DNA of 57,682 nucleotides from Desulfocapsaceae bacterium (GTDB lineage: Bacteria > Desulfobacterota > Desulfobulbia > Desulfobulbales > Desulfocapsaceae). Below are positions 5,304 through 30,961 of this stretch, one piece after another. A program made the position numbers and the translations under genes. The stretch's first letter is position 1, and each line of letters starts with the position of its first letter. The stretch covers positions 1-57,682 of the forward strand of contig JAUSAB010000079.1 in assembly GCA_030653035.1 (NCBI GenBank), read 5' to 3'. Below the pieces are notes generated by a model. It worked only from the letters and a program-made list of their open reading frames with translations, was not told where the DNA came from and did no database searches.

Positions 5304-5574
5304 TGTATTCTGAGTTTTCTCTGTCACCCAAAATAAATCCCTCTTTCCACCATCCCACATTCCTTGCCAAGGATTTTTCCCCCAATTCCAATCTGTTTTA
5401 TTGCAACCTGTGAATCTTCGGGGTTAAAATGAAGTGAACGGAAAGTGATATAGGCCGAAACTCCAAAATCCAAATCAAAGAGCTGTAGTAAAAAGAAACA
5501 CTCCGGTCTTCAAGATTAGGGCCAAGGCCCGGCCGCTTAATACCGGCAACTCACAAAACTACAGACCGTCCCCC

Positions 5575-5602
5575 TAAACAATCCCCCTCCTCCTGCCGAT
5601 AT
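5575..5602 (+). promoter_or_regulatory. Sigma-28 (FliA) type promoter of flgK
   Basis: TAAACAAT (5575-5582), a 12-base spacer, then GCCGATAT (5595-5602) match the flagellar sigma-28 consensus TAAAGTTT / GCCGATAA. The same 12-base spacing is seen before both flagellin genes. The predicted start of transcription is about 60 bases before flgK. Because it lies downstream of the cytochrome gene, flgK is independent of that block. Confidence 0.75.
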
Positions 5603-8296: not shown

Positions 8297-8539
8297 ATGC
8301 TGGTTCTTACCAGAAAACCCGGCGAAGGATTTGTCATCGGCGACGATATAACAATCAAGATTGTTGAGATGAAAAGCGGTGGCGTTCGTATCGGCATCGA
8401 AGCGCCTCAAAACAAAAAGATCTACCGACAGGAAATCTATGACCGTATCACCATGGAGAACAAAGCCGCGACACAATGGAATATGACCGATCTTGATACC
8501 CTCAGCGATAACCTTTCAGCGGAAATAAAGAAAAAATGA
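8297..8539 (+). CDS. csrA: Translational regulator CsrA
   Basis: The 80-residue protein begins MLVLTRKPGEGFVIGDDITI, continues with GGVRIGIEAPQNKKIYRQEIY and has a somewhat extended C-terminal tail, as in the CsrA/RsmA family. CsrA dimers bind GGA motifs in mRNA leaders and block or stabilise translation. Its start is the only ATG giving the canonical N terminus; GGAG lies just upstream. The last four bases overlap fliW, so the two are translationally coupled. In this arrangement FliW antagonises CsrA, and the expected target is flagellin mRNA, whose genes follow. Confidence 0.95.
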   Translation: MLVLTRKPGEGFVIGDDITIKIVEMKSGGVRIGIEAPQNKKIYRQEIYDRITMENKAATQWNMTDLDTLSDNLSAEIKKK

Positions 8540-8955
8540 CAACAATACTGACACGCTTCGGCGAAGTTGAATACGATCCCGAAAACCTGCTCATCTTTCC
8601 GGCCGGCCTGATCGGATTCCCCACTCTGCACTCTTTCATCGTCATGCCCAACAGAAAAGAAGGCCCTCTCTTCTGGATTCAAAGTGTCGATGACCCGGAC
8701 ATCGCTTTTGTCCTCACCGACCCGACCAATTTTTTCCCGAGTTACGAGGTAATACCTGATAATGCAGAAAGAAGCTCATTACAGATAAATCAGGAAGATG
8801 AATGTTACATCCTAGTCGTGGTTACCGTGCCGCCAGATCAAAAAATCACCCTGAATCTGGCCGCCCCAATCATGTTTACCCCCAAGACTAACCGGGCCAT
8901 TCAGGTTATTCTTGAAAACACAGAATACCAGTCACGGACACCACTCCCCGCCTGA
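8536..8955 (+). CDS. fliW: Flagellar assembly factor FliW (CsrA antagonist)
   Basis: The 139-residue protein contains FGEVEYDPENLLIFPAG (residues 7-23), FFWIQSVDDPDIAFVL-like text (LFWIQSVDDPDIAFVL) and a compact beta-rich fold typical of FliW. FliW binds either flagellin or CsrA. When flagellin has been exported, free FliW sequesters CsrA and relieves repression of flagellin translation. The start overlaps the csrA stop as ATGA, and the operon ends at a strong terminator at 8979. Confidence 0.95.
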   Translation: MTTILTRFGEVEYDPENLLIFPAGLIGFPTLHSFIVMPNRKEGPLFWIQSVDDPDIAFVLTDPTNFFPSYEVIPDNAERSSLQINQEDECYILVVVTVPPDQKITLNLAAPIMFTPKTNRAIQVILENTEYQSRTPLPA

Positions 8956-9016: not shown

Positions 9017-9071
9017 TTTTATCTGAAAAATACTGCTTATTTCATAATGGAAACTTTTAGGATATCAACCT

Positions 9072-9242
9072 TGTGTGATATCTGCAAAACGCCACTCCAA
9101 GAAACAGCCGGTAAAAAATTGGCTGTTTCTTGGAAGCGGCATAAGGTGCCGGTCGCTCCTGCACCGTCCATGGTGCTCACGACACTCGGCCGTCCCTGGC
9201 CTGCGTAATAAAATAAGCAAAAAAGCTCTGCTTATTTCATAA
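9072..9242. repeat. Tandem hairpin-bearing repeat, copy 1 (171 bp)
   Basis: The unit starts TGTGTGATATCTGCAA and ends CTTATTTCATAAC. It holds a 13-bp perfect stem (CCAAGAAACAGCC ... GGCTGTTTCTTGG, loop 11) and a 9-bp perfect stem (AAATAAGCA ... TGCTTATTT). Copy 1 differs from copy 2 mainly by an extra segment of about 54 bases (around 9151-9204). No coding capacity is evident. It lies between fliW and the first flagellin gene. Confidence 0.85.
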
Positions 9243-9249
9243 CAAGCAC

Positions 9250-9366
9250 TGTGTGATATCTGCAAGACGCCACTCCAAGAAACAGCCGGTAAAAAATTGG
9301 CTGTTTCTTGGAAGCGGCATAAGGTGCCGTAATAAAATAAGCAAAAAAGCTCTGCTTATTTCATAA
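9250..9366. repeat. Tandem hairpin-bearing repeat, copy 2 (117 bp)
   Basis: Nearly identical to copy 1 without the 54-base segment. Its right half forms a larger imperfect palindrome: GGTGCCGTAATAAAATAAGCA faces TGCTTATTTCATAACGGCACC with two mismatches in 21. Outside the pair, GGAAACTTTTAGG (9049-9061) and CCTAAAGTTTTCC (9372-9384) are near-inverted copies, resembling terminal inverted repeats of a small non-autonomous element. Confidence 0.8.
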
Positions 9367-9373
9367 CGGCACC

Positions 9374-9401
9374 TAAAGTTTTCCGGCCACCCTGACGAAA
9401 A
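9374..9401 (+). promoter_or_regulatory. Sigma-28 type promoter of the first flagellin gene
   Basis: TAAAGTTT (9374-9381) is an exact -35 match. After 12 bases comes GACGAAAA (9394-9401), six of eight matches to GCCGATAA. Spacing equals that of the flgK and second flagellin promoters. The -35 element lies within the right end of the hairpin repeat element. The leader to the ATG would be about 108 bases. Confidence 0.65.
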
Positions 9402-9516: not shown

Positions 9517-11040
9517 ATGGCACTCACAATCAATACAAACGTTCCATCATTAAACGCTCAACGCAATCTTGGTAAATCACAGAATGATCTTTCCCGCTCC
9601 ATGCAGCGGCTTTCTTCCGGCCTGAGAATCAACTCGTCCAAAGACGACGCCGCCGGTCTTGCCATTTCCGACCGGATGACATCCCAGATTCGGGGACTCA
9701 ACCAGGCCTCACGAAACTCCAACGACGGTATCTCCATGGCCCAGACGGCGGAAGGGGCGCTCCAGGAGACCACGAATATCCTCCAGCGTATGCGCGAGCT
9801 GGCCATCCAGTCAGCCAATGATACCAATAGCGCCTCTGACCGCGCCTCCCTTCAGGCTGAGGTTAACCAGCTTCAGCAGGAAATGACCCGAATTGCCGGC
9901 AGCACCTCTTTTAACGGCAGAAACATCCTCGACGGCTCCCTGAACAATGCCCAGTTTCAAGTAGGCGCCAATGCCAATGAGACAATTTCCTTCTCTATCC
10001 CTTCTGCCAAGGCAGCAGAACTTGGGAACCACACACTAGAATCAACCAATGCTACCGCTACCAGCATTGAAGCAGCGTCTGCTGCTGCTGCCGACACAAG
10101 CGCCGGTAACAATGTGACGGCCCAAATCCTCAGTATATTTGGCCCTGAGAGTGCTGCCGTATCGACTGTTTCAATTGCTCTCGATGACAGTGCCAGACAA
10201 ATTGCCGATAAAGTCAATATCGCATCCATAGACACCGGCGTAACCGCCGAGGCCAGAACTACAGCCACTATCTCCGGGATTGGCACCGCCGGAATTGTAT
10301 CTTTCAAACTGGCTGGGACCAACACCGGTGCAGGCCAGGAGATCCCGGTCAGCGCCCTGGTGGGAGCCGGCGACCTGACCGCCTTGTCCAACGCCATCAA
10401 TGATCAGGCCGGTAATACCGGAATCATGGCCACACTGAGCGGCGACAAAACAGAGATCGTCTTGACGCAGGCATCAGGATACGATATTAAAATCAGTGAT
10501 TATACGCACAGTGTCGCTGCTGACACCATGATCGTCGAAGGCAATGAAGCTGCCACCCCAACAGCAATCACGCTGACAAGCGGCACGGCAACCGACTCCA
10601 CCACCATTGGTGGCAAGGTTTCCTTCTACAGCCATGGCTCCTTTAATATAAGCAGCGATGTTGCCGCCGCCGGCGGTTCGCTTTTCAGCACCCTTGCCGC
10701 TGCCGCCAACGGCAGCACCCTCTATTCCATTGATGACGTGGACATCAGCACAGTTCAAGGCGCTTCTGATGCCATCAGATCCATTGATGGGGCCGTAAGC
10801 CAGATTGACACCATGCGCGGTGATCTTGGTGCCCTGCAGAACCGCTTTGAATCCACCATCGCCAATCTGCAGAATGTCTCTGAAAATCTTTCCGCCGCCC
10901 GCAGCCGGATTCTTGATGCCGACATCGCCCAGGAGACCTCGGCCATGACCAAGAACAACATCCTGCAACAGGCAGGGGTTGCCATCCTGGCCCAGGCCAA
11001 CCAGACGCCACAACTGGCATTGAAGTTACTGCAAGGTTAA
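9517..11040 (+). CDS. fliC: Flagellin (first copy)
   Basis: The 507-residue protein has conserved flagellin D0/D1 ends: [18 protein letters not shown] and [20 protein letters not shown] at the N terminus, and [18 protein letters not shown] with [15 protein letters not shown] at the C terminus. A Ser/Thr-rich central region (about residues 175-400) should be surface exposed in the filament and is a plausible site of O-glycosylation. The SD AAGGAGG sits 7 bases before the ATG and itself contains GGA triplets that CsrA could cover. It directly precedes the giant TPR-glycosyltransferase gene. A second flagellin (29444) shares the ends and has a related but diverged middle. Confidence 0.97.
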
Positions 11041-11266: not shown

Positions 11267-14200
11267 GTGAAATTTGAATCATCAAACATTCCTTTCATGA
11301 CTCTGCCCCCCCATTCAGACCAATCTTCTCAGATACTGCTCGATCAAGCCTGGCAAAGGGCATTGATATACAGTCAAAACGGTCAGATTCAAGAGGCGGA
11401 AAATCAATATCAGACTATTCTCAAAATCCAGGCCGATCATCCTGAGGCAAATTACTCCTTAGGTCTTCTCGCACTCCAGAGAAATCAACCCTTAGAAAGC
11501 CTGCCCTATTTTGAAGCTGCTGTGGACAAACGGCCGGAACACGGCCCATACTGGCTGGCATATATAGACGCTCTGGATCAGACCGGGCAATCAGATATCG
11601 CCCGGCAGATATTTGAAATGGCACAACATTCCGGACTTGAAGGCGAAGAGGTGAACGCCCTTGCGACCCGACTCGGTCTTCGGCAAGAGATACCAGCCGA
11701 ACGACCTGCCACCTCCGTCCTGCCTGAATCACCACAGATTAACCCAGCAAACAATGCGACACCAAACCAGGAAGAGATCGACACCCTTCTCTCATTATAC
11801 CAACAAGGAAGAATCACCGACTGCGAGAATCTTGCCCATTCGATTCTGAACCGTTTTCCCAACCATGGTTTTTCCTGGAAGATCCTCGGGGCGCTCCTTA
11901 AACAGCAGAACCGGCTGGATGAGGCGATATTGGCCATGAGACAGGCTGCACTCCTGCTACCACAAGACCCGGAAGCCCTGAACAATCTTGGTTTGACACT
12001 CAAGAACACTGGAAATCTTGCCGAATCAGAATCAATCCTGCGCCTTGCCCTTGACCTCAACGGCGATTTTGCTGAGGCCTATAATAATCTTGGCGTAACC
12101 CTCATGGCACAAGGCCGTTTAACCGAATCGGAAGAATGCTTTCGCCAGGCATTGCACATTCAACCGGAATATGCCGAGGCCTATTGCAACCTCGGCACCA
12201 ACCTGAAGGATCAAGGACAATTTGCTGATTCTGAATCAAATTTCCAACATGCCCTGAGACTCAGGCCTTCTTCTGCGGAGGCCTACAACAATCTGGGAAA
12301 CCTCCTTCAAGGTCAAGGAAGACTCTCTGAGGCAGAAGCAAATCTACACAAGGCACTGGAACTCAAACCAGAATTTGCCGTAGCCTATAACAATCTTGCA
12401 AACACCCTCCATTGTCAGGGGCATCTTGAGGATTCAGAATTCTGTTATCGCAAGGCTATGGAACTCAAACCAGACTTTACCGAGGCATATGATGGCCTGC
12501 TCTTTGTGTCAAACTATGATCCCGACAAAAGTGCAGATGAGCTTTTTGAACTCTATCGTGAATACGATGCACGATTTGGCCACCCACATCAAAACCAATG
12601 GAAGCCACATACCAACAATCGTGATGCTGATCGTTGCCTGAAGGTCGGATATGTATCCCCCTCTTTTTACAGCCATCCGGTATTCCATTTTCTCGAACCA
12701 TTACTTGCCCATCATGACAAAAGCCGTTTTGAAATTTTCGCCTATTCTGAGACAATCCGCGAAGATCCAATCACGACTTGCTATAAGCAGCACGTAGATC
12801 ACTGGATATCTTCTATTGGTCTCTCTGATGACGAACTGGCCGAACGTATCCGCAGCGACGAGATTGATATCCTTATTGATCTCGCTGGGCACACCGGCCG
12901 CAACCGACTGCCGGTCTTTTCCCGCAAACCGGCCCCTGTATCCTTACACTGGCTTGACTTCGGCTACACGACAGGGCTCTCGGCCATTGATTACTACCTG
13001 ACAGACATTGCCAGTGCGCCAATAGGAAGCGAGAATCTGTTTTCAGAACAACTATGGCGGTTATCGACCCCAGCCCTCGCCTATCGCCCGGCAACAGGCA
13101 TGGGTCAGGTGAGCCCATTGCCTGCTGTGCAGCACGGACACATCACCTTCGGAACCCTGACCCGGGCGATCCGCATCAACCATCGAACAATCCGGGTATG
13201 GTCTGAGATCCTCCATCAAATTAAAGGCTCACGACTGGTAATTGATAGCGGCAGTTTCAAGGATCCATCGGCAGTTAAAATACTGATAGAAAAATTTGTC
13301 GCCCACGACATCGGCAAAGACCGTTTGGATATCGGCTACCACAGTCCTCCCTGGGATGTGTTAAGGAATATCGACATAGGTCTGGACTGCTTTCCCCATA
13401 ACTCCGGAACAACACTGTTTGAGAACCTGTATATGGGGGTACCCTTTATCACCTTGGCAGACAAACCAGGCATCGGGAGGTTGGGGTGTTCCCTTCTAGA
13501 GGGAGTAGGTCATCCGGAGTGGATAACCCGCAGCGAAAATGAATATATAGAAAAAGCGATTGCCCTTGCCTCAGATCTTCCGGGGCTGACAGCTGTTCGT
13601 GCTGGTTTGCGCGAGGAAATGCAGCAATCGCCCTTAATGGATGAGAAGGGTTTTACGGAAAGAGTCGAGGGTGCATATCGGAAGATGTTCAAGAAATGGT
13701 GCACAAAAACACTCCTGATAGCCAGCCAGTCCGGGAATATCGCCAAAACAGTCAACGAAACGCCACCAGACATAAGTGAAGACGCTATTGCCCTCTATAA
13801 TTCCGGCGTCGATTCTCAACAGCATAATCGGCTTAATGACGCAAAAAATCAGTACATACAGACCGTCAACATTCGTCACGACTTTGCCGAGGCCTACAAT
13901 AATTTGGGTGTCGTTTTTCAACAGGAAGGACTATTGATCGACGCAGAAGCGAGCTTTCTCCGAGCTCTTGCGATCAAACCGAATTACGCAGACGCCTATT
14001 ACAACTTGGCAAACACCTACAAACTGCAACAGAAATTTTTTGAGGCTGAAACAAATTATCGAAAAGTTATCGCAATCCTGCCGGACTATACCAATGCCCA
14101 TTACTATCTGGGCAATATTCTTCAGGAACAGGGACGGCCAAATGAAGCCGAGACCTGTCTCCGCCAAGCGTTATCACTCAACCCGAACCATATCAACGCC

Positions 14201-17200
14201 TTCAGCACACTGCTTTTCGCCTTGAACTACCACCCGGCAAAAAGTTCGGAAGAAATCTTTCAAGTATATCAGGAATTCAATGCGAGATTCTACCTGCCCC
14301 TCAAAGAGAGCTGGTTACCACATGCCAATAATCGTGAACAATATCGCCGTTTGAAGGTTGGTTATGTAGCGCCGGATTACCGTAAACATCCAGCACGCTA
14401 TTTTCTCGAGCCCTTACTTGCCCATCACGATAAACGTTTGGTTGAGACCTATGCCTATATTGAACTCTCTCAGGACGACGCCGCAACCGATCTGTTTCAT
14501 GGCTATGTGGAGCATTGGCTGTCCACAGCAGGGTTGACGGATGATCAATTGAGTGAGCGTATCCGGGATGATGCCATAGATATTCTCGTCGATCTGGCCG
14601 GTCATACCGCAGGGAATCGACTGGGAGTCTTTGCCAGAAAACCAGCTCCGGTCTCACTGCACTGGCTGGACTTCGGCTACACGACAGGATTGACCGCAAT
14701 CGATTATTATCTGACTGACAACCCTACCATTCCTCCAGGGAACGAACATTTTTTCTCGGAAACTCCTTGGCGTCTCGAAACGCCAGCCCTGGCCTATCGT
14801 CCTCCTAACGGAACAGGTCCTGTAAACACACTCCCGGCACAAAAAAACGGACATATTACCTTCGGGACCCTGACCAGGGCTGTACGCATCAACCACCGGA
14901 CAATTCGAGTGTGGTCCGAGATACTAAAAAGGTGTGAAGGATCCCGCCTCATCATCAATAGCGGCAGTTTCAGGGAAGCTGCCATGCAGGAGGCCTTGGC
15001 TGACCAGTTCAGCGTGCATGGAATCGAGCGAGAGAGGCTCGACATCGGCTGCCAGAGTCCGCCATGGGATGTCCTGCGAAAGATCGATATCGGGCTTGAC
15101 TGTTTTCCCCATAACTCCGGCACAACACTGATCGAAAGCCTCTACATGGGAGTCCCTTACATCACCCTGGCTGACCGCCCAAGTGTCGGCCGGCTGGGAA
15201 GTTCGATTCTTGAAGGTATCGGCCATCCTGAGTGGATAGCCGGGACGGAAGATGAATATACCCTGAAGGCTGTAGCGCTTGCAGCTGATTTACCGAAACT
15301 GGCCGCAATCCGTATGCGTCTGCGTGAAGACATGAAAAAAAGTCCCTTGATGGACGAACCAGGTTTTGCCAGAAAAGTCGAAACTGCCTATCAGGAGATG
15401 TTCAAACGCTGGTGCGATTCGGAACAGATGACAGCAATGACGATTGATAAAAAAATGCCCAGTCAAACAATACACAAACAGAAAAAGCATATGCCTAAAA
15501 ATAGAAATATCAAAGGACCGCATCCGGCATCCCCATCCAACACCGAGATCCACAGGCTCACCCGTTTGTTCGATCAGGGACTCCATGCTGAAGCCATTGA
15601 ACTTGCCAGATCATTGACAACCCGATTTCCACACCACGGATTCGGCTGGAAAGTGCTGGGCCCGCTTCTTCACCAGCAGGGATTGCACGAAGAAGCGATC
15701 CTGGCCATGAAACAGGCAGCAATCTACCTACCTCACGATCCCGACGCACAATATAATCTCGGAATTGCCCAGCAACATTCTGGTCTTCTGGAAGAAGCCG
15801 AACACAGCTATCGCTTGGCTCTACAGCTCAACAAAAATTATATCCAGGCACAGTATAACCTCGGAAACATCCTGAAAGAAAAAGGCCGTCCGGCAGAAGC
15901 AGAAAGCTGCTATCGTCACATCCTGAGACTCAAACCGGATTTTTTTGAAGTACACTGTAACTTGGGGAACATATTAAGAGCGCAAGGAAGGTTCAGTGAA
16001 TCAGTTGACAGCTATCGATCGGCTTTAAGAATCAGACCTGATTCTGCCGAGCTTTACAATAATCTCAGTCTCACCCTCAAAGAACAAGGCCTGCTTGCCG
16101 AAGCGGAAACTGCATGCAAGCAGGCGCTCAAGCTCAAACCGGATTTCCCTGAGGCCCACAACAACCTTGGACTCATTTACCATGAGCAGAAACGACTCAC
16201 AAAAGCTGAAGTAAGTTACAGACAAGCGTTAGTACTTACCCCCAATTATGCCATCGCATTAAACAACTTGGGACTCAACCTCCAGGAACAAGGGCGACTA
16301 ACTGAATCCGAAAACTATTATCAACAGGCGCTGACAATTTCTCCGGATTTCAATGAGGCGTACAGAAACCGTGGGATACTGTATCAGAAACTGGGCAGAC
16401 TTGCTGAGTCCGAAAACAGTTACAGACAGGCCCTGGCGCTCAAAGCTGATGACATCAAAACGCTGAATAATCTCGCTGTCACGCTCTACAAACAAGGGCG
16501 GAATTCTGAGGCAGAAACAACCTGCAGGATGGCGCTTGAACTTGACCCAAATTATGTAACGGCACATAACAGTTTAGGTAATATTCTTATCAATCAGGGC
16601 CAACTTACCGAAGCTGAAAAGTGTCTGCGTCATGTACTCGAAATTACACCCGATTATGCTGAAGCCCGCAGCAATCTGCTCTTTGTTTTGAATTATCACC
16701 CTGACATGAGCGGCGAGGACATCTTCAAAGAATACAAGATGTTCAATACTATCTTCGGTATCCCCTGGCAACAGGAATGGCAGCCGCATACCAACAACCG
16801 CATTCCCAACCGTCGTTTAAAGGTGGGTTATGTGGCGCCTCAACTTCGTCGCCATTCGGCCCGTCATTTTCTCGAACCTTTGCTTGCCCATCATGACAAA
16901 GAAAAATTCGAAGTGTATGCCTATGCCGAGCTGTTCAACGAAGATGACCAGACACTCCGTTACAAGACCTTCGTAGATCACTGGATTACAACAACCGGCA
17001 TGAGCGATGCCGCGGTGGCAGCCAAAATCCGTGAGGATGACATAGATATCCTTGTTGATCTGGCAGGCCATACCGACGGAAACCGTCTGGAGGTTTTTGC
17101 CCGCAAACCTGCTCCGGTTTCACTGCACTGGCTTGATTTCGGCTATACCACTGGTCTGACGGCAATAGATTATTATCTCACCGACAAGGCAACTGTTCCC

Positions 17201-20200
17201 AAAGGAAGTGAAGCTCTCTTTTCAGAAACCCCTTGGCGGATAGAGACACCCTGCCTTGCTTATCGGCCGGCAGAAGGTATGGGAGATATCAATCCCCTGC
17301 CGGTAGCGACCCGTGGCTACGTTACCTTCGGCACACTCACAAGGGCTGCCCGGATCAATCACCGGACAATCCGAGTCTGGTCGGAGATCCTGAAACAGGT
17401 TGCAGGCTCACATCTGGTGATTGACAGTGGCGACTTCAAAGACCCAAACCTGCAAGAAGCTCTTGCAAACAAGTTTATTGCCCACGGAATAGAGCGAGAA
17501 CGACTGGAAATCGGCTTTCACAGCCCGCCATGGGATGTCCTGCGCGGCCTGGATATCGGGTTCGACTGTTTTCCCCACAACTCGGGAACCACCCTGTTTG
17601 AGACCCTTTACATGGGTGTGCCGTTCATCACCTTAGCCGGCCGCCCCAGTGTCGGACGGCTCGGATGCTCAATCCTTGAAGGGATTGGACATCCTGAATG
17701 GATTGCTTGTACCGAAGAGGAATACATAGAGTTGGCGGTGGCCCTCGCTGCTGACCAGCACCATCTGGCGTCTGTCCGTGCCGGATTGCGCCAAGAGATG
17801 GAACAGAGTCCATTAATGGATGAACCTGTTTTCACCCATAAAGTGGAGCAAGCATACCAAGAGATGTTTGCTAAATGGTGCGAGAATAAACAATCGGTAC
17901 TGCCACAAACAGAAGACAAAAAAGACGATAAAAAGGCCACCGCATCTTCTCTTCAGGCTGTTCTGAATGAAGCAGAAAACTTTTACCGGCAACGTCAATT
18001 TCCGGACGCTAAGGATGGATATCAAAAGGTGTTGGCCCAAAATCCAGAAGTACCAGAATTGCATTACGCGTTAGCTAACACCCTGGTTGAGCTGGGTCAA
18101 CTTGAAGAAGCTGAGGCCAGTTACAGAAAGGCACTGGAGCTAAAACCGGATTTTGCCGAGGCCTTGGGTAATCTCGGCAACACTCTGCAGAGACAATGCC
18201 GAATTCTCGATGCCGAGACCTGTTATCAACACGCCCTGGAAATAAAACCTGATTTTGCCGAAGGATATTTCAATCTCGGCAATCTGCTCCGAGAACAAAA
18301 TCGACTTGCTGAATCACAGACCGCGTATCAAAAAGCGATCCAAATCAAGCCGGACTACATTAAGGCATACAGCAATCTTGGCGTTACCCTCCAGATGCAG
18401 GGACAACTCGCAGAAGCGGAAAACAATTATCGGAAGGCGATCAAGATTCAGCCGGACTTTATTGAAGGGTATATCAATTTAGGGGCCTGCCTCAAAGAAC
18501 GTGGCCTCTATCGAGAGGCGGAAAAATACTATAAAAATGCATTGACTATAAATCCTGATTTTGCTCTCTGCTACAGTAATTTAGGATCCGTCCTTAAAGA
18601 ACATGGCCAGCTTTCTGAAGCTGAAAGATGCCTACGCCGAGCCTTGGAGCTCAACCCGGACTACCCCGAGGCGCACAGCAATCTGCTTTTTCTCCTGAAT
18701 TACCATCCTGACAGGAGTGCTGAAGAAATATATGAGGAATACAAAACCTTTAACGCTCGATTTAGCCTCCCGTTGCAAACAACATGGCAACCCCATGCTA
18801 ACAACCGCCAAACTGACCGCCGTTTGAAGATCGGTTATGTATCGCCGCAATTCCGACTGCACTCGATACGTCATTTTTTCGAACCACTGCTGGCTCACCA
18901 TGACAAACAACGTGTTGAGATCTTCGCCTATGCTGAAAACTCGACAGAAGATGCCCTGACGGATCGATACAAATCCTATACAGATCACTGGAGAGTTGTT
19001 GCGGGTCTCAGTAATGCTGTACTGGCAGAAAAAATCCGCACGGATGGTATCGATATCCTTATAGATCTGGCAGGGCACACCGCAAATAACAGGCTCCTGA
19101 TGTTTGCGCTGAAGCCGGCTCCGGTTTCCCTGCACTGGCTTGATTTCGGCTACACCACAGGGCTCACGGCAATCGATTATTACCTGACTGACAAGGCAAC
19201 TGTTCCCGAAGGAAGCGAAGGGCTTTTTTCTGAAAAACCCTGGCGGATAGAGACACCTTCCTTTGCCTACCGACCGGCAGAAGGCATGGGAGATGTCAGT
19301 CTTCTGCCGGCCTTAACCCGTGGCTATGTCACCTTCGGCACATTGACCAGGGCTGTCCGCATTAATCACCGGACAATACTGGTTTGGGCGGAGATACTGA
19401 AACAGGTCGAAGGCTCACATCTGGTTATCGACAGCAGCAATTTCAGAGATACGTCGATGCAGGAAGAACTGGCAGACAAGTTCATCGCCCATGGAATTGA
19501 TCGGGAACGACTGGAAATTGGTTATCACAGTCCACCGTGGGATGTCCTGCGCGGCCTGGACATCAGTCTCGACTGTTTCCCCCACAACTCCGGCACCACC
19601 CTGTTTGAAACCCTTTATATGGGAGTGCCGTTCATTACCCTGGCTGACCGGCCAAGTGTCGGCCGCCTCGGCTGTTCGATTCTGGAAGGGCTGGGCCATC
19701 CAGAGTGGATCGCAAGGACAGAGGAAGAGTATGTGCAACTGGCGGTAGCACTTGCCGTTAATCTGCCCAAACTGGCAACGATCAGATCCGAACTGCGGCA
19801 AGAGATGCAGGACAGTCAGTTAATGAATGAACCGGCCTTTGCCTGCAGAATGGAAACTGCCTACAGGGAGATGTTTGCGAAGTGGTGCGAAGACCAGCAA
19901 CCGATACTGCTGAAAATTGAGGACAATGGAGTGACCGCCGAATCTCTTCTGGAAATTCTGCACCAAGCAGATACCCTTTACCAGTCAGGTCAGCTCCTGG
20001 AGGCCAAAGCCGTGTACCATTCTCTTCTCGAGATCGAGCCACAACATCCTGAAGCGAATTACCGACTAGGATGCATAGCAGTTGCGTTGCAGCAACCATC
20101 TGCCGCCCTGCCCTACTTTGAGACGGCAATTGATGTCCGTCCTGAACACGGGCCATACTGGCTGGCGTATATCGATGCCCTCGACAAGGCCGGTCAGTCT

Positions 20201-22759
20201 GAATCGGCTCGCCAGCTTCTGGAAATGGCAATTCACTCCGGTTTGAACGGTGATGAAGTGGAGATATTGAAAATCCGTTTAGCAACACTCCCGATAGAAT
20301 CCCCTATCGAAAATGCAAAAAGAACAAAGCCGACCAAAGCAATCAAAAAAAACAAATCAAACCGACAACGAAATGCCGGAAAAAATAGTGCCAATCCGCA
20401 ACCTGATGAAACAAACAGCCTAGTGTCTCTCTTCCAACAGGGTAACCTTGTTGAAGCTGAAGCAGCCGCCTTCTCTCTGATTGAACGTTTTCCAAGAAAC
20501 AATCTCGCCTGGAAAGTTTTAGGGGCAATCCGCAGACAACAAGGGTTATTTGATGAAGCGTTATCCGCCATGGAAAAAGCCATTGCGATCATGCCGAAAG
20601 ATTATATCTGCCTGCGTAATATCGCCGTTCTTCTCTGTGATTTGGGAAAGAATGCCGAAGCTGAAAGCTACTGTCGCAGGGCCTTGGCGATGAGGCCGGA
20701 TTACGCCGATGCTCACAATACACTGAGCATTGCCCTCCGGTCGCAAAAAAAACTGCCTGAAGCTGAACACAGTTGTAGGAGGGCACTGAGACTGAAGCCC
20801 GATTGTGCAGAAACATTTGTTAACCTTGGCCTTATTTTAAATGAAGAAAATGAATTTGCTGAAGCTGAGGCATGTTATCGTAAGGCGTTGGAGCTGAATC
20901 CCAATTTTGCGGAGGCATATTGCGGCCTCAGCATCACTCTCCAGGCAGCAGACAGGATCGCCGAAGCTGAATCAGCCTGCCGTCAGGCACTTATCTTGAA
21001 ACCGGACTATGCTGCGGCATATAATAGTTTAGGGGGGATTCTCAACGAACAAGAGAAATATGATGAGGCAGAAACTGTCTATCGACAGGCCCTGAAGCTC
21101 AAGCCCTCCTCTCTTGAGACATTGCAGAATCTTGCAAAAACGCTTTACAATCAAAACAAGTTTACAGAAAGTGAATCCTGCTGCAGGCAGGTTCTGGAAA
21201 TCAAACCAGACAATGCCGAGGTCTGTTACAATTTAGGAAACGCCTTGGCCGGGCAAGAAAAGCACGGAGAGGCCGAAGCCAGTTTTAAGGCGGCACTGAA
21301 GATCAGCCTGGATTATCCCGAGGCTTCTATCAACCTGGGAAACAGCTTGCGGGCGCAGGGCTGGATTACCGAGGCTGAAAAAAACTATCGATCCGTTCTG
21401 CAAATGCATCCGGATAACAAGAAGGCTTACAATAACCTGGGGAACATCCTTCAGGAGCAGGGCCGTCTTGACGAATCGGAGATTATTTTTCGCTCCGTCT
21501 TGGAATCCAATCCAGATTTTGCCGGCGCCTTCGGCAATCTCCTATTTCTCCTGAATTACCATCCCGACAAAAGTGGAGAGGAGATATACCAGGAATATAT
21601 CAGGTTCAATGAACGATTTGGTCTCCCCCTTCGTGAAGAATGGAAGCCGCATGCGAACAGCCGGACAACGAACCGCCGCCTGAAGGTAGGATATGTCTCG
21701 CCCCAGTTCTGTCAGCACCCGGTCTGCAATTTCCTTGAACCGCTGATGGCAAATCACAACAAGGATATTGTTGAGCTCTACGCCTACGCGGAAAGCTATA
21801 AAGAAGATGACACGACAGACCGATACCGATCATATGTGGACCATTGGATACCGACAAAGGGTTTGACTGATACCGACATGGCCGAACGTATCCGTAGTGA
21901 TGGTATTGACATCCTGGTCGATCTGGCTGGACATACGGGACAAAACCGACTGTTGGTGTTCGCCCGCAAACCAGCACCGATTTCCCTGCACTGGCTGGAT
22001 TTTGGTTACACCACAGGGTTGCCGGCGATTGACTATTATCTTGCCGACAGCGCCAGTGTCCCCGAGGGAAGCGAAGGATTGTTTGCAGAGACCCCATGGA
22101 AGCTTGCGACACCTTGTCTTGCCTACCGGCCCAATAAAGGCATGGGCGAGGTGAACGCCTTGCCGGCACACGAGCGAGGCTATATTACTTTTGGGAGTTT
22201 GAGCCGGGCGGTGCGCATCAACCACCGAACAATCCGGGTCTGGTCGGAAATACTCAAACAGGTAAAAGGTTCGCACCTCGTTATAAACAGTGGTAACTTC
22301 AAAGATCCTGCCATGCAAAATGTATTGGCGGAAAAGTTTGTCGCCCATGGTATTGACCGTGATCGCCTGGAAATCGGCTGCAACAGTCCACCATGGGATG
22401 TGCTGCGAAGCCTGGATATAGGTTTCGACTGCTTTCCCCATAACTCGGGGACCACCCTGTTTGAGACACTCTATATGGGGATTCCCTTTATTACACTCGC
22501 CGGCCGGGCCAGTGTCGGCCGGCTCGGCTGTTCTGTTCTTGAAGGACTTGGGCATCCGGAATGGATCGCCAACTCAGAAGAAGAGTATATTGAACGGGCA
22601 GTAGCGCTCGCCGTCGATTTGCCAAGACTGACGACTCTGCGCGCCGGCCTGCGACAAGAAATGGAGCAAAGTCCCTTAATGGATGAGCCGGCCTTTACCC
22701 GCAAGGTGGAGGCAGCATATAACGAGATGTTTATGAAATGGTGCGAGGAACAACGATGA
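11267..22759 (+). CDS. Giant five-module TPR / GT41 (SPINDLY/OGT-like) glycosyltransferase
   Basis: A single 3830-residue frame alternates TPR arrays with five GT41 catalytic domains at residues 458-812, 1029-1383, 1851-2205, 2520-2874 and 3472-3826. Each is exactly 355 residues from LK(V/I)GYV to WC. The TPR segments between them are 457, 216, 467, 314 and 597 residues, about 50 TPRs in all. Every module keeps the His of the OGT His498 position, D before I-D-I-L, FGYTTGL, PPWDVLR and NSGTT. The OGT uridine-nucleotide lysine is replaced by Arg (RINHRT) in all five. GT41 enzymes O-glycosylate Ser/Thr in the cytoplasm; flagellin is the likely substrate because two flagellin genes flank the island. 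The start is a GTG with a poor SD, and TTGACA at 11194 may belong to a weak promoter. The stop overlaps the next gene as ATGA. Confidence 0.92.
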   Translation: MKFESSNIPFMTLPPHSDQSSQILLDQAWQRALIYSQNGQIQEAENQYQTILKIQADHPEANYSLGLLALQRNQPLESLPYFEAAVDKRPEHGPYWLAYIDALDQTGQSDIARQIFEMAQHSGLEGEEVNALATRLGLRQEIPAERPATSVLPESPQINPANNATPNQEEIDTLLSLYQQGRITDCENLAHSILNRFPNHGFSWKILGALLKQQNRLDEAILAMRQAALLLPQDPEALNNLGLTLKNTGNLAESESILRLALDLNGDFAEAYNNLGVTLMAQGRLTESEECFRQALHIQPEYAEAYCNLGTNLKDQGQFADSESNFQHALRLRPSSAEAYNNLGNLLQGQGRLSEAEANLHKALELKPEFAVAYNNLANTLHCQGHLEDSEFCYRKAMELKPDFTEAYDGLLFVSNYDPDKSADELFELYREYDARFGHPHQNQWKPHTNNRDADRCLKVGYVSPSFYSHPVFHFLEPLLAHHDKSRFEIFAYSETIREDPITTCYKQHVDHWISSIGLSDDELAERIRSDEIDILIDLAGHTGRNRLPVFSRKPAPVSLHWLDFGYTTGLSAIDYYLTDIASAPIGSENLFSEQLWRLSTPALAYRPATGMGQVSPLPAVQHGHITFGTLTRAIRINHRTIRVWSEILHQIKGSRLVIDSGSFKDPSAVKILIEKFVAHDIGKDRLDIGYHSPPWDVLRNIDIGLDCFPHNSGTTLFENLYMGVPFITLADKPGIGRLGCSLLEGVGHPEWITRSENEYIEKAIALASDLPGLTAVRAGLREEMQQSPLMDEKGFTERVEGAYRKMFKKWCTKTLLIASQSGNIAKTVNETPPDISEDAIALYNSGVDSQQHNRLNDAKNQYIQTVNIRHDFAEAYNNLGVVFQQEGLLIDAEASFLRALAIKPNYADAYYNLANTYKLQQKFFEAETNYRKVIAILPDYTNAHYYLGNILQEQGRPNEAETCLRQALSLNPNHINAFSTLLFALNYHPAKSSEEIFQVYQEFNARFYLPLKESWLPHANNREQYRRLKVGYVAPDYRKHPARYFLEPLLAHHDKRLVETYAYIELSQDDAATDLFHGYVEHWLSTAGLTDDQLSERIRDDAIDILVDLAGHTAGNRLGVFARKPAPVSLHWLDFGYTTGLTAIDYYLTDNPTIPPGNEHFFSETPWRLETPALAYRPPNGTGPVNTLPAQKNGHITFGTLTRAVRINHRTIRVWSEILKRCEGSRLIINSGSFREAAMQEALADQFSVHGIERERLDIGCQSPPWDVLRKIDIGLDCFPHNSGTTLIESLYMGVPYITLADRPSVGRLGSSILEGIGHPEWIAGTEDEYTLKAVALAADLPKLAAIRMRLREDMKKSPLMDEPGFARKVETAYQEMFKRWCDSEQMTAMTIDKKMPSQTIHKQKKHMPKNRNIKGPHPASPSNTEIHRLTRLFDQGLHAEAIELARSLTTRFPHHGFGWKVLGPLLHQQGLHEEAILAMKQAAIYLPHDPDAQYNLGIAQQHSGLLEEAEHSYRLALQLNKNYIQAQYNLGNILKEKGRPAEAESCYRHILRLKPDFFEVHCNLGNILRAQGRFSESVDSYRSALRIRPDSAELYNNLSLTLKEQGLLAEAETACKQALKLKPDFPEAHNNLGLIYHEQKRLTKAEVSYRQALVLTPNYAIALNNLGLNLQEQGRLTESENYYQQALTISPDFNEAYRNRGILYQKLGRLAESENSYRQALALKADDIKTLNNLAVTLYKQGRNSEAETTCRMALELDPNYVTAHNSLGNILINQGQLTEAEKCLRHVLEITPDYAEARSNLLFVLNYHPDMSGEDIFKEYKMFNTIFGIPWQQEWQPHTNNRIPNRRLKVGYVAPQLRRHSARHFLEPLLAHHDKEKFEVYAYAELFNEDDQTLRYKTFVDHWITTTGMSDAAVAAKIREDDIDILVDLAGHTDGNRLEVFARKPAPVSLHWLDFGYTTGLTAIDYYLTDKATVPKGSEALFSETPWRIETPCLAYRPAEGMGDINPLPVATRGYVTFGTLTRAARINHRTIRVWSEILKQVAGSHLVIDSGDFKDPNLQEALANKFIAHGIERERLEIGFHSPPWDVLRGLDIGFDCFPHNSGTTLFETLYMGVPFITLAGRPSVGRLGCSILEGIGHPEWIACTEEEYIELAVALAADQHHLASVRAGLRQEMEQSPLMDEPVFTHKVEQAYQEMFAKWCENKQSVLPQTEDKKDDKKATASSLQAVLNEAENFYRQRQFPDAKDGYQKVLAQNPEVPELHYALANTLVELGQLEEAEASYRKALELKPDFAEALGNLGNTLQRQCRILDAETCYQHALEIKPDFAEGYFNLGNLLREQNRLAESQTAYQKAIQIKPDYIKAYSNLGVTLQMQGQLAEAENNYRKAIKIQPDFIEGYINLGACLKERGLYREAEKYYKNALTINPDFALCYSNLGSVLKEHGQLSEAERCLRRALELNPDYPEAHSNLLFLLNYHPDRSAEEIYEEYKTFNARFSLPLQTTWQPHANNRQTDRRLKIGYVSPQFRLHSIRHFFEPLLAHHDKQRVEIFAYAENSTEDALTDRYKSYTDHWRVVAGLSNAVLAEKIRTDGIDILIDLAGHTANNRLLMFALKPAPVSLHWLDFGYTTGLTAIDYYLTDKATVPEGSEGLFSEKPWRIETPSFAYRPAEGMGDVSLLPALTRGYVTFGTLTRAVRINHRTILVWAEILKQVEGSHLVIDSSNFRDTSMQEELADKFIAHGIDRERLEIGYHSPPWDVLRGLDISLDCFPHNSGTTLFETLYMGVPFITLADRPSVGRLGCSILEGLGHPEWIARTEEEYVQLAVALAVNLPKLATIRSELRQEMQDSQLMNEPAFACRMETAYREMFAKWCEDQQPILLKIEDNGVTAESLLEILHQADTLYQSGQLLEAKAVYHSLLEIEPQHPEANYRLGCIAVALQQPSAALPYFETAIDVRPEHGPYWLAYIDALDKAGQSESARQLLEMAIHSGLNGDEVEILKIRLATLPIESPIENAKRTKPTKAIKKNKSNRQRNAGKNSANPQPDETNSLVSLFQQGNLVEAEAAAFSLIERFPRNNLAWKVLGAIRRQQGLFDEALSAMEKAIAIMPKDYICLRNIAVLLCDLGKNAEAESYCRRALAMRPDYADAHNTLSIALRSQKKLPEAEHSCRRALRLKPDCAETFVNLGLILNEENEFAEAEACYRKALELNPNFAEAYCGLSITLQAADRIAEAESACRQALILKPDYAAAYNSLGGILNEQEKYDEAETVYRQALKLKPSSLETLQNLAKTLYNQNKFTESESCCRQVLEIKPDNAEVCYNLGNALAGQEKHGEAEASFKAALKISLDYPEASINLGNSLRAQGWITEAEKNYRSVLQMHPDNKKAYNNLGNILQEQGRLDESEIIFRSVLESNPDFAGAFGNLLFLLNYHPDKSGEEIYQEYIRFNERFGLPLREEWKPHANSRTTNRRLKVGYVSPQFCQHPVCNFLEPLMANHNKDIVELYAYAESYKEDDTTDRYRSYVDHWIPTKGLTDTDMAERIRSDGIDILVDLAGHTGQNRLLVFARKPAPISLHWLDFGYTTGLPAIDYYLADSASVPEGSEGLFAETPWKLATPCLAYRPNKGMGEVNALPAHERGYITFGSLSRAVRINHRTIRVWSEILKQVKGSHLVINSGNFKDPAMQNVLAEKFVAHGIDRDRLEIGCNSPPWDVLRSLDIGFDCFPHNSGTTLFETLYMGIPFITLAGRASVGRLGCSVLEGLGHPEWIANSEEEYIERAVALAVDLPRLTTLRAGLRQEMEQSPLMDEPAFTRKVEAAYNEMFMKWCEEQR
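12638..13702 (+). repeat. GT41 catalytic module 1 of the giant protein
   Basis: Residues 458-812. Contains VGYVSPSFYSHPVFHFLEP, IDILIDLAGHTGRNR, FGTLTRAIRINHRTIRVW and FPHNSGTTLFENLYMGVP. It is preceded by about 11 TPRs, including an N-terminal block with PEHGPYWLAYIDALD (residue 90 onward) that recurs only before module 5. Confidence 0.85.
14351..15415 (+). repeat. GT41 catalytic module 2
   Basis: Residues 1029-1383. Contains VGYVAPDYRKHPARYFLEP, FGTLTRAVRINHRTIRVW and FPHNSGTTLIESLYMGVP. It has the shortest TPR array, about 5 repeats. Confidence 0.85.
16817..17881 (+). repeat. GT41 catalytic module 3
   Basis: Residues 1851-2205. Contains VGYVAPQLRRHSARHFLEP, FGTLTRAARINHRTIRVW and FPHNSGTTLFETLYMGVP. 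About 12 TPRs precede it. Confidence 0.85.
18824..19888 (+). repeat. GT41 catalytic module 4
   Basis: Residues 2520-2874. Contains IGYVSPQFRLHSIRHFFEP, FGTLTRAVRINHRTILVW and FPHNSGTTLFETLYMGVP. About 8 TPRs precede it. Its catalytic domain looks closest to module 3 by eye. Confidence 0.85.
21680..22744 (+). repeat. GT41 catalytic module 5
   Basis: Residues 3472-3826. Contains VGYVSPQFCQHPVCNFLEP, FGSLSRAVRINHRTIRVW and FPHNSGTTLFETLYMGIP. It has the longest array, about 15 TPRs, starting with a PEHGPYWLAYIDALD block (residue 2959 onward) like that of module 1, then a lysine-rich linker. Confidence 0.85.
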
Positions 22760-25141: not shown

Positions 25142-26364
25142 ACTGTCGCCATTGCGGAGCCACACTCCAACTCCCTTTCCTCGATCTCGGCTCCGCGCCG
25201 CCCTCAAATGCCTATCTCACCAGCGAGAGCCTGCAGGCGCCGGAACTATGGTTTCCATTGCGAGTGATGGTGTGCGAGCAATGCTGGCTGGTGCAGACCG
25301 AAGATTTCTCCCGAGCGGATGCCCTCTTTGCCGCAGATTATGCCTATTTCAGTTCCTTTTCCGATACTTGGCTGGAACATGCCAGGCAATATGTCCAGAC
25401 AATGATCAGCCGCTTTACCCTGAACACTCACAGTAAGGTGATAGAGGTCGCGGCCAACGACGGCTATCTCCTGCAGTACGTGCAACAGGCCGGTATCCCC
25501 TGCCTCGGCATTGAACCCACCTCAGGCACAGCCCAGGCGGCCAGGGCAAAGGGGTTGACCATCATCGAAGAATTTTTTGGTGAACAGCTGGCGCAGACCC
25601 TGGCGGCTGATGGCCAGAGCGTCGATCTGATGACAGCCAACAATGTCCTGGCCCATGTCCCTGAAATTAATGATTTTGTCAAAGGATTTACCACCCTGCT
25701 GAAACCCCAGGGAGTTGCCACCTTTGAATTCCCACACTTGTTGCGACTGGTCCAGGAGAATCAGTTCGATACCGTCTATCACGAACACTACTCCTATCTG
25801 TCACTGCTGACGGTTGAGGCCATCTTCTCCAGCCAAGGGTTGCATATCTTTGATGTGGAGCAACTGCCCACTCATGGCGGCAGCTTGAGGGTCTATGCCC
25901 AGCGGGCAGACCTCGGGAGGCACGAACGCACGAAGCGGGTTGCAAAAGTTCTTACCGAAGAGATGACCGCAGGCATGACAGGTACGGCGTTTTATACCGG
26001 CCTGCAAGGCAGGGCCGAGCAGGTCAAAAATGACCTGCTCCTCTTTCTTCTTGAGGCTAAACAGCAAGGACTCGCCGTTGCCGCCTACGGAGCGGCTGCC
26101 AAAGGCAATACCCTGCTCAATTTTGCCGGAGTCAGGCCTGATCTGTTGCCTTATGTGGTGGATCGCAATCCCGCCAAGCAGGGCAAGTTTATGCCCGGCA
26201 GCCGGATTCCGATTGTTGACGAAGCGCATCTGCAACGCAACCGACCGGACCGGATCCTGATCCTGCCTTGGAATCTAGGTGATGAAGTGATGAAACAACT
26301 GGAGTATATCCGGGAATGGGGCGGACAATTTGTGACGGCAGTTCCCGGACTTGAGATCCATTAA
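25138..26364 (+). CDS. NovU/TylC3-type sugar C-methyltransferase
   Basis: The 408-residue protein has the three-part layout of sugar C-methyltransferases. An N-terminal zinc-binding region has CRHCG near residue 3 and CEQC near residue 46. A SAM-binding domain follows (VIEVAANDGYLLQYV, LGIEPT). A C-terminal domain ends in the NLGDEVMKQL region. DTVYHEHYSYLSL is the signature segment with catalytic His/Tyr. These enzymes add a methyl branch to C3 or C5 next to a 4-keto group, so the cluster should make a branched CDP-deoxyhexose. The start overlaps the preceding stop as ATGA. The methylated carbon cannot be read from sequence. Confidence 0.9.
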   Translation: MNCRHCGATLQLPFLDLGSAPPSNAYLTSESLQAPELWFPLRVMVCEQCWLVQTEDFSRADALFAADYAYFSSFSDTWLEHARQYVQTMISRFTLNTHSKVIEVAANDGYLLQYVQQAGIPCLGIEPTSGTAQAARAKGLTIIEEFFGEQLAQTLAADGQSVDLMTANNVLAHVPEINDFVKGFTTLLKPQGVATFEFPHLLRLVQENQFDTVYHEHYSYLSLLTVEAIFSSQGLHIFDVEQLPTHGGSLRVYAQRADLGRHERTKRVAKVLTEEMTAGMTGTAFYTGLQGRAEQVKNDLLLFLLEAKQQGLAVAAYGAAAKGNTLLNFAGVRPDLLPYVVDRNPAKQGKFMPGSRIPIVDEAHLQRNRPDRILILPWNLGDEVMKQLEYIREWGGQFVTAVPGLEIH

Positions 26365-26468
26365 GACATGGCCAAAGCGGCAGCAGAAGCCGGAACAAAA
26401 TGGTCACGAATGTAATGGGTATCTGGTAACGGCCTCTAAAAATTCTGACGAACAGGAAAGGTGAAAAT

Positions 26469-29032: not shown

Positions 29033-29197
29033 AGCAAACAGATAGTTGGCAGGCACAGTGTAATCTGTTTCCCATGTGTCCCACAGAAAATACTCTTTCG
29101 GTGCTCCGCACGGGGATCGAGTCTTAACTGCGGCACAGTCCAAACCAGATATTGAGTCAACTGAATTTTATCCTTCATAATTTTTTCACATCACAGC
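29033..29197. other. Intergenic stretch before the second flagellin promoter
   Basis: No gene and no convincing terminator is seen between the acyltransferase stop and the sigma-28 promoter at 29198. Confidence 0.4.
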
Positions 29198-29443: not shown

Positions 29444-30961
29444 ATGGGACTCACAATTAACACAAACGTAATGTCTCTCAACGCCCAACGTAACTTGGGT
29501 ACATCTCAATCAGCGCTGGCAAAATCCATGCAGCGTTTGTCGTCTGGTCTTCGCATCAACTCCGCCAAGGATGATGCCGCCGGACTGTCTATTTCAGATC
29601 GTATGACCTCGCAGATCCGCGGTCTGAATCAGGCAGCTCGTAACTCTAACGATGGTATCTCTCTGGCCCAGACGGCTGAGGGTGCCTTACAGGAAACAAC
29701 AAACATCCTTCAGCGTATGCGTGAGCTGGCCGTTCAGTCAGCAAACGATACCAACAGCTCCTCTGATCGTTCTTCCCTGCAGTCTGAGGTAAATCAGCTT
29801 AAACAAGAAATGACCAGGATTGCTGACACTACTGAATTCAACGGCAAAAAGCTTCTTGACGGAACTATGACTTCGGCCCAGTTCCAGGTGGGAGCCAATG
29901 CAAACCAGACCATTTCCTTTGGAATTAGCTCAGCCAAGGCCGCAAGTCTTGGTAATAATTCCTTGGCTACCAGCAACACCACGGCCAACTACAGCATTGA
30001 AGGAGCAACCTCAGCAGCTACGGGCAGTTCAGCCAATGATGTACTGGCTCAGACCCTGACTGTTGTCGGTAAGGAAGGTTCACAAACTACCTCTGTTGCT
30101 GCTGGCGCTACGGCTGCCGTTATTGCTGCCAGCATCAATGCCATTGCTGCAGATACCGGCGTAACGGCCACTGCCGCAACAACGGCTACGATAGGCGGCC
30201 TTACTGCCAATGGCAGTATCACATTTAGTCTTCAAGGTTCCAACACCACAGCACTTTCGATTAATGCAACCGTGCTTTCCGATGACCTGACCAACCTGGT
30301 CACTGCCATTAGCGAGCAGGCAGGGAATACCGGCATTACCGCCACACTGAGTTCTGACAAGAAAAGTCTCACCCTTAGTCAAGCGGCAGGATATGATATC
30401 AAGGTCGCTGACTTTGCCCACAGCGCTACCGGCGCTGCAGATTCAGTTATGACATTGCAAGGTAGCACCCCTACGGTCGTCACTCTTACAGATAGTACAA
30501 CCGCAGCCTCCAAACTCGATTCTTCCACCGTTGGTGGCGAGATCACTTTCAATGGTTCGGCTGGCTTCAACGTAACAAGCAGTATTGCCGCCAGTACCGG
30601 TTCACTCTTCTCAACCGCCGCTAATGGTGCCAACGTCAGTACCTTGAGTTCCATCGACAACGTGGATATTACCACAGTCACAGGTGCTGCTGATGCCATC
30701 AAGGCTGTTGACGGGGCTTTAACACAGATTGACAATATGCGTGGTGATCTTGGTGCGGTCCAGAACCGTTTTGAGTCCACCATCTCCAATCTGGCTAACG
30801 TCTCCGAGAATCTCTCTGCTGCCCGCAGCCGGATTCTGGATGCGGACATTGCTCAGGAAACCTCAGCAATGACCAAGAACAACATCCTGCAACAGGCCGG
30901 TGTCTCCATTCTGGCCCAGGCAAACCAGGCTCCACAGTTGGCATTGTCCTTGTTGAAGTAA
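29444..30961 (+). CDS. fliC: Flagellin (second copy)
   Basis: The 505-residue protein begins [18 protein letters not shown] and [20 protein letters not shown], and ends with [18 protein letters not shown] and [14 protein letters not shown]. The D0/D1 ends are nearly the same as in the first flagellin. The Ser/Thr/Ala-rich middle (roughly 175-400) is homologous but diverged. AAGGAGG precedes the ATG at 7-8 bases. With a near-consensus sigma-28 promoter it is probably the more strongly expressed copy. A filament of two flagellins, or differential use, is possible. Confidence 0.97.

Follow-up and report, generated by a model that had tools for sequence, protein, structure and literature searches.

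Organization of the fliW–Flagellin Gap

The window analyzed here is a stretch of 57,682 nucleotides (contig JAUSAB010000079.1 of assembly GCA_030653035.1, from a Desulfocapsaceae bacterium), in which the gap between fliW and a flagellin gene holds a lone hairpin arm, two units of a hairpin element and the boxes of a sigma-28-type promoter (Table 1). An 80-nt core occurs twice in this gap (99% identical, at a spacing of 178) and a 40-nt right part is also found twice (100% identical, at a spacing of 124). Each unit is built of two hairpins, of which H1 is perfect over 14 bp and H2 has arms of 22 nt that are 91% complementary; folded as single-stranded DNA, unit 2 reaches -34.4 kcal/mol (z = -8.35) and none of 200 shuffled sequences was equally stable. 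Repeat identity, fold and the Pfam assignments of the neighbouring genes thus confirm the two-copy hairpin element that a first-pass annotation of this DNA had placed between fliW and the flagellin gene.

Table 1. Positions in the window of the hairpin units, promoters and genes discussed in the text.
Feature	Position	Strand	Remarks
csrA	8297–8539		Listed alongside fliW
fliW	8536–8955	+	Pfam PF02623 and PF02599, both cited for this gene
Remnant H2 right arm (CTGCTTATTTCATAA)	9033–9047	+	Read from the sequence; a like remnant at the same place in G004
Unit 1	9070–9249	+	Left end, H1 and interrupted H2
H1 of unit 1	9096–9109/9121–9134	+	Perfect arms
Extra module (~53 nt)	9152–9204	+	Within the H2 stem of unit 1
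Unit 2	9250–9377	+	Complete element; covariance model match 9259–9377
H1 of unit 2	9274–9287/9299–9312	+	Arms
H2 of unit 2	9322–9343/9353–9374	+	Arms
CTAA	9373–9376	+	Right end, presumed to be the target word (opposite strand: TTAG); 103/110 copies
Sigma-28-type -35 (TAAAG)	9374–9378	+	Ancestral
Sigma-28-type -10 (GACGAAAA)	9394–9401	+	20 nt past the start of the -35
Flagellin gene	9517–11040	+	3' of the promoter; Pfam PF00669 and PF00700
Sigma-28-type promoter of flgK	5574–5602	+	Empty in the window; occupied in G016 and G011

That annotation gave the units a length of 117–171 bp; there are indeed two of them, but the greater length of the first is due to a separate module of ~53 nt. Unit 2 ends in GGCACCTAAA, the right end of unit 1 is decayed (AAGCAC where GGCACCTAA is expected), and the arm at 9033–9047 is probably the leftover of an older unit. 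The near-inverted outer ends that had been taken for terminal repeats are of another nature, the left one being absent from the aligned copies of the family and the right one consisting of the end of the element together with adjoining promoter sequence of the host.

The ~53-nt module, with loops GTCCATGG and GTCCCTGG or near variants of them, is also present elsewhere in the genome and sits at the same point of the H2 stem in several elements (it is seen in L034, L037, L038, L042, L044 and L047 besides the window); the modules of L038 and L044 stand without H2 and may lie inside coding sequence. A different repeat-like sequence (CCACCCCCAACCCCCTCC...) was observed in the fliW–flagellin gap of L070, L075 and L077, and this second repeat type in relatives suggests that the gap may be a repeat hot spot. 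Directly after the flagellin gene, positions 11267–22759 encode a 3830-aa TPR-repeat protein with Glyco_transf_41 matches, possibly a giant flagellin glycosyltransferase.

A Family of Interspersed Palindromic Repeats

The family unit is ~118 nt long (118 model positions) and consists of the two hairpins and a CTAA right end. A BLAST search with the region gave 46 matches in the window's own genome and found matches in 22 of 58 relatives' genomes, belonging to 6 of 36 genera and including all 17 genomes of the genus (G000–G016). A covariance model was then built on 37 of 40 extracted copies (L015, a copy without H1 at L024:1630, and L056, a duplicate of L076, were dropped before alignment); with a ceiling of 150 scored candidates per genome, it detected the family in 17 of 17 genomes of the genus, each of which gave between 19 and 143 rows. 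The own genome has 103 model rows at E <= 0.01, a set that includes opposite-strand and half matches, and 37 rows of at least 79 bits; most of its weaker rows that were inspected belong to sister subfamilies, whose stems differ while the plan and, in most cases, the end are shared. The search of the genome and its relatives that the first-pass annotation had proposed thus returned many copies, and the unit is not unique to this site.

Under a stricter filter, the model matched 33 of 93 genomes and 4 of 18 genera of the taxonomic family, and at E <= 1e-5, also under a stricter filter, 67 of 257 genomes and 19 of 69 genera of the order, mostly weakly outside the genus. Repeated weak matches were observed in other genera of the order (g55 and g32 among them), which are perhaps sister palindrome families, and a genome from another family holds a strong match (G190:C52:2175-2292, 112 bits), to be read as either a transfer or a misbinned contig. 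The named public assemblies with matches come mostly from Desulfobulbaceae and Desulfocapsaceae. A plasmid and phage search gave no match to the unit and none to the ~53-nt module, and no prior description of this family was found among titles and abstract openings of the open-access literature. For the loci named below, L069 corresponds to G004, L071 to G016, L075 to G003, L076 to G009, L077 to G011 and L090 to G012.

Right End, Stop Codons and Mobility

The right end reads CTAA in 103 of 110 copies, a set composed of 50 copies from G000 (1 of its 51 rows was left out for lack of flank) and 60 of the best-scoring ones from G015, G008, G004 and G014. When the 7 copies without CTAA are set aside, CTA is the TAG stop of an opposite-strand gene in 56 of 103 copies, while 32 are intergenic and 15 fall in called frames, the genes having been called by an ORF rule of our own and not taken from an annotation. 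Such stops are found at only 12 of 312 control CTAA sites, from which sites resembling element ends had been excluded (p = 6e-29), and at 1 of 404 CTAA sites in a second control, drawn from loci selected without regard to the element. With a simpler open-frame test, the counts were 62 of 103 copies versus 74 of 1120. The 56 stop-codon copies adjoin 32 distinct neighbour genes, and the listed C-termini look complete to us, one of them resembling what we take to be the end of a formyltetrahydrofolate ligase.

The earlier proposal that the element moved in is supported by its repeated, mobile-looking nature and by filled and empty states at orthologous sites. An intergenic locus (C117) comparable in 13 of the 17 genomes (among the others, 3 had no match and G013 could not be assessed) is filled in six (G000, G008, G006, G016, G015 and G014), contains a remnant in one (G002) and is empty in six (G004, G011, G009, G003, G007 and G001). 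At fliC, two units are present in G000 versus one in its near relative G004. In a tree built on the region that ends with fliW, the filled L076 and the empty L075 are sisters (100/100), and the same tree is compatible with separate gains at fliC as well as with one gain followed by losses. No target-site duplication was seen at fliC or C117, where left flanks are poorly alignable to empty sites; the left ends of the element could not be aligned to them. In the six empty C117 genomes the neighbour gene stops, in our reading, with TGA or TAA and not with TAG, so that CTAA is not a visible pre-existing target there and the element may supply it.

In the ten tandem arrays that were inspected, the full end is kept by the last unit alone. 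The arrays of L009, L010 and the window have their junction near the element end, as re-entry at CTAA would give, whereas those of L024, L298, L301, L259 and L279 break off at different positions within the right arm of H2 and have flank sequence repeated along with the unit, for which duplication or template switching would fit better than re-entry at an intact CTAA.

Proposed Mechanism and Comparison with Known Elements

The feature is an interspersed palindromic repeat family of the REP-like kind, and the two units and the remnant of the window are probably copies of a non-autonomous DNA repeat that works like a hairpin element of the REP/IS200 type. We infer that a unit would enter immediately 5' of CTAA (3' of TTAG on the other strand) and leave these four bases intact, so that words starting with CTAA, such as the sigma-28 -35 and opposite-strand TAG stops, would survive; a further unit may then enter at the kept CTAA, which could explain some of the tandem arrays. 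The element would be moved in trans by an HUH-type single-strand nuclease, the weakest step of the scheme. For the flagellin gene, the likely outcome would be an altered upstream region with an unaltered core promoter. Several observations weigh against this explanation: no transposase is linked to the element, the stops of the empty C117 sites do not display the CTAA target, several array junctions inside the H2 right arm are a poor fit to re-entry, left ends do not align to empty sites, the use of the promoters is deduced from sequence, and the copies outside G000 are the best-scoring ones, with sites of related genomes that are not independent. Its interest is that a mobile palindrome can adjoin essential words without harm to them by keeping four edge bases with which, as it happens, a TAG stop codon or a sigma-28 -35 begins.

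IS200/IS605-derived elements have hairpins at their ends, retain a tetranucleotide at one flank and are cleaved 3' of it as single-stranded DNA, REPINs are dispersed short mobile palindromes composed of two inverted copies of one hairpin, and MITEs are short, non-autonomous, dispersed elements with terminal inverted repeats. The family shares with MITEs its short, non-autonomous and dispersed nature, but inspection revealed no terminal inverted repeats (left ends are like CTTGTATGTTATC, right ends are GGCACCTAA) and no target duplication was recognised, left flanks aligning poorly to empty sites. It has in common with REPINs the dispersed short palindromes, and its sister subfamilies partly resemble two inverted hairpins, whereas the main subfamily contains two different hairpins and not one inverted pair. 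With the IS200/IS605-derived non-autonomous elements (PMC6006769) it shares hairpins at the ends and a tetranucleotide kept at one flank, together with the absence of an evident target duplication; it differs from them in stems that vary freely in sequence and in ends that are not shared with Y1 genes (0 of 35 loci examined out of 75 rows).

GTAG REPs of the REP/RAYT system, given as 20-40 bp in PMC3733652 and as 21-65 nt in PMC6006769, are likewise extragenic palindromes present in many copies, one end of which is marked by a fixed tetranucleotide, and the former source states that their termini "often provide" a TAG stop codon to flanking ORFs, a feature also shared by the present family (56/103 versus 12/312 controls). 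They differ from it in the GTAG/GTGG foot of their hairpin (CTAA/TTAG here, in 103/110 copies), in being short palindromes (two unlike hairpins over ~118 nt here) and in their RAYT neighbours (0/35 Y1 loci of 75 here), and the stems of this family show strong paired turnover. REP-like non-autonomous repeats are the closest known kind.

A true REP/REPIN family moved by the genome's own RAYT (TnpA-REP) would be in line with the terminal TAG word, which gives stop codons as described for GTAG REPs (PMC3733652), and with the presence of Y1 proteins throughout the genus (17 of 17 genomes, 75 Y1 rows). Nevertheless, this alternative is rather unlikely, given a TTAG instead of a GTAG word, a length of 118 nt instead of 20-40 bp, and no model match (E <= 1) in the 35 Y1_Tnp loci examined of the 75 rows, on which count RAYT linkage was rejected. 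G015 has 143 model rows yet a single Y1 fragment.

Occupancy of Sigma-28 Promoters

Sigma-28 promoters are made up of TAAA and GCCGATAA-like boxes. Downstream of the element lies CTAAAG-N15-GACGAAAA, corresponding to the boxes of the flagellin promoter, at a spacing that is presumably one base longer than that of the E. coli sigma-28 consensus. Conserved boxes before fliC, the flgM operon and flgK, in a genome that encodes FliA (above its cut-off), identify these sites as putative sigma-28 promoters. A whole-genome scan with the sigma-28 pattern gave 4 matches versus 19 for a reversed control pattern; the pattern alone therefore proves nothing, and the comparison was restricted to sites preceding flagellar genes, each judged by the orthologous downstream gene.

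Twenty-two sigma-28 promoters were judged in nine genomes, of which 12 are occupied by a copy whose terminal CTAA is exactly that of the -35 and 10 are empty, with the promoter intact and CTAAA retained. The fliC promoter is filled in four genomes (G000, G004, G009 and G012) and empty in three (G016, G011 and G003), the count omitting G013 and G001, whose contigs end inside the element after fliW. That of the flgM operon is filled in six (G000, G009, G003, G012, G013 and G016, the last with a weak copy of 25.5 bits) and empty in two (G011 and G002). That of flgK is filled in G016 (92 bits) and G011 (48 bits) and empty in five (G000, G009, G003, G004 and G002), G012 and G013 being omitted since the pattern recognised no promoter in them. 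Variant -10 boxes (GTCGATAT and ACCGATA) at flgM of G012 and at the two filled flgK sites fall outside the pattern and were judged individually; the empty promoters were found by a pattern demanding [CT]TAAA, so that empty sites without it would be missed.

Among other intergenic CTAA sites, only 1 of 134 is occupied, versus 12 of 22 at sigma-28 promoters (p = 3e-11, genomes treated as independent). These control sites come from sequences selected independently of the element, namely the window, the 35 Y1 loci and two loci of the FliA family, and the sole occupied one is a decayed copy (window 26361–26440, 22 bits) that lies between genes and ends in CTAAA. Tandem units are found at 7 of the 12 occupied sigma-28 sites versus 11 of 107 other copies (p = 0.0003, genomes again treated as independent). 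Because the sigma-28 sites are partly shared by descent, both tests overstate significance. What is new here is the presence of copies at late flagellar promoters, with ends that match the CTAA of the -35, a taste that can be called unusual.

Both excesses would be expected if the units at sigma-28 promoters had been recruited, as read-through insulators or as supercoiling-sensitive upstream elements, and were kept by selection. We hold this to be unlikely, since congeners lack the element at the same promoters, occupancy could equally reflect a target preference, shared descent inflates the significance, and the control set is small, with some overlap among its loci and many transposases. It is similarly doubtful that the repeat, with its end word overlapping the -35, has moved into late flagellar promoters of the genus on repeated occasions, and that the tandem arrays built there are now a selected upstream part of the flagellin, flgM and flgK promoters, acting as an insulator or topology sensor. 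In any case, filled and empty fliC, flgM and flgK promoters in close relatives constitute a natural experiment on promoter-adjacent hairpin arrays.

A Probable DNA Palindrome Rather than a One-Strand RNA

Covariation was analyzed on 107 aligned matches, of which 106 are distinct; the alignment follows the model and is thereby biased toward pairing. The stems are paired in 97.1% of 3153 cells, and double changes affect 25 of 30 pairs (336 cells, against an average of 70 in shuffled columns; 0 of 500 shuffles were as high). The flgM copies of G009 and G003, for instance, differ in stem sequence and are each self-complementary. If the unit were an RNA of one strand, G·U pairs would be tolerated on that strand and G·T cells would outnumber A·C cells. 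Mismatches of the two kinds are equally rare (35 G·T and 40 A·C cells; binomial p = 0.64), so that neither strand is favoured, which suggests that the unit is a DNA palindrome rather than a one-strand RNA. In our reading, the palindrome may be kept at the DNA level by selection for the hairpin or by correction of one arm to the other, and such paired stem turnover without an excess of G·T over A·C would be a clear case of DNA-level palindrome maintenance.

The first-pass annotation had also considered a regulatory RNA structure. That the units are a structured RNA selected for its fold (a 3'-UTR stabiliser, a small RNA or a regulatory leader) would agree with the strong, conserved two-hairpin fold and with the many copies whose first position coincides with a stop codon, where a 3'-UTR hairpin would also be expected to start. 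It is quite improbable, however, because the mismatch counts favour no strand, no Rfam model reached its gathering score within the element (only three tRNAs did across the window) and a search for terminator-like sites found none on the units. At E <= 5, Rfam gave sub-gathering matches only, the best being to a miRNA hairpin model (4.5e-6). The family thus differs from structured RNA families in having no curated match and no one-strand wobble tolerance.

Age of the Flagellin Promoter

An exact -35 had been noted at the right end of the element, together with the idea that the element had supplied it. TAAAG is present there and is followed 15 nt later by GACGA, but the element did not make it: when empty sites upstream of fliC are compared, as the first-pass annotation had advised, they already have the promoter. 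Element-free fliC loci keep CTAAAG-N15-GACGA within the genus (L071, L075 and L077) and outside it (L078, L079, L086, L092 and L096, with TTAAAG in L084). The covariance model detected no unit at these nine sites, the sole matches in those loci being located ~3.7 kb upstream, at flgK, in L071 and L077. The same -35 and -10 at the same spacing in element-free relatives imply that the flagellin promoter is older than the insertion, and the occurrence of CTAA with and without the element shows the same for the other putative sigma-28 promoters judged. It is hence hardly credible that the element moved in and created the -35 with its right end, rewiring flagellin transcription, for although this end coincides with the -35, the same boxes with a start-to-start distance of 20 nt stand at element-free fliC inside and outside the genus, and also at empty flgM and flgK promoters. 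A donated -35 was ruled out by the element-free flagellin loci with TAAAG and GACGA. Elsewhere in the window, a sigma-28-like promoter at 29197, a site without a model match, accompanies a second flagellin-like gene (29444–30961) that is 84% identical across the first 140 aa.
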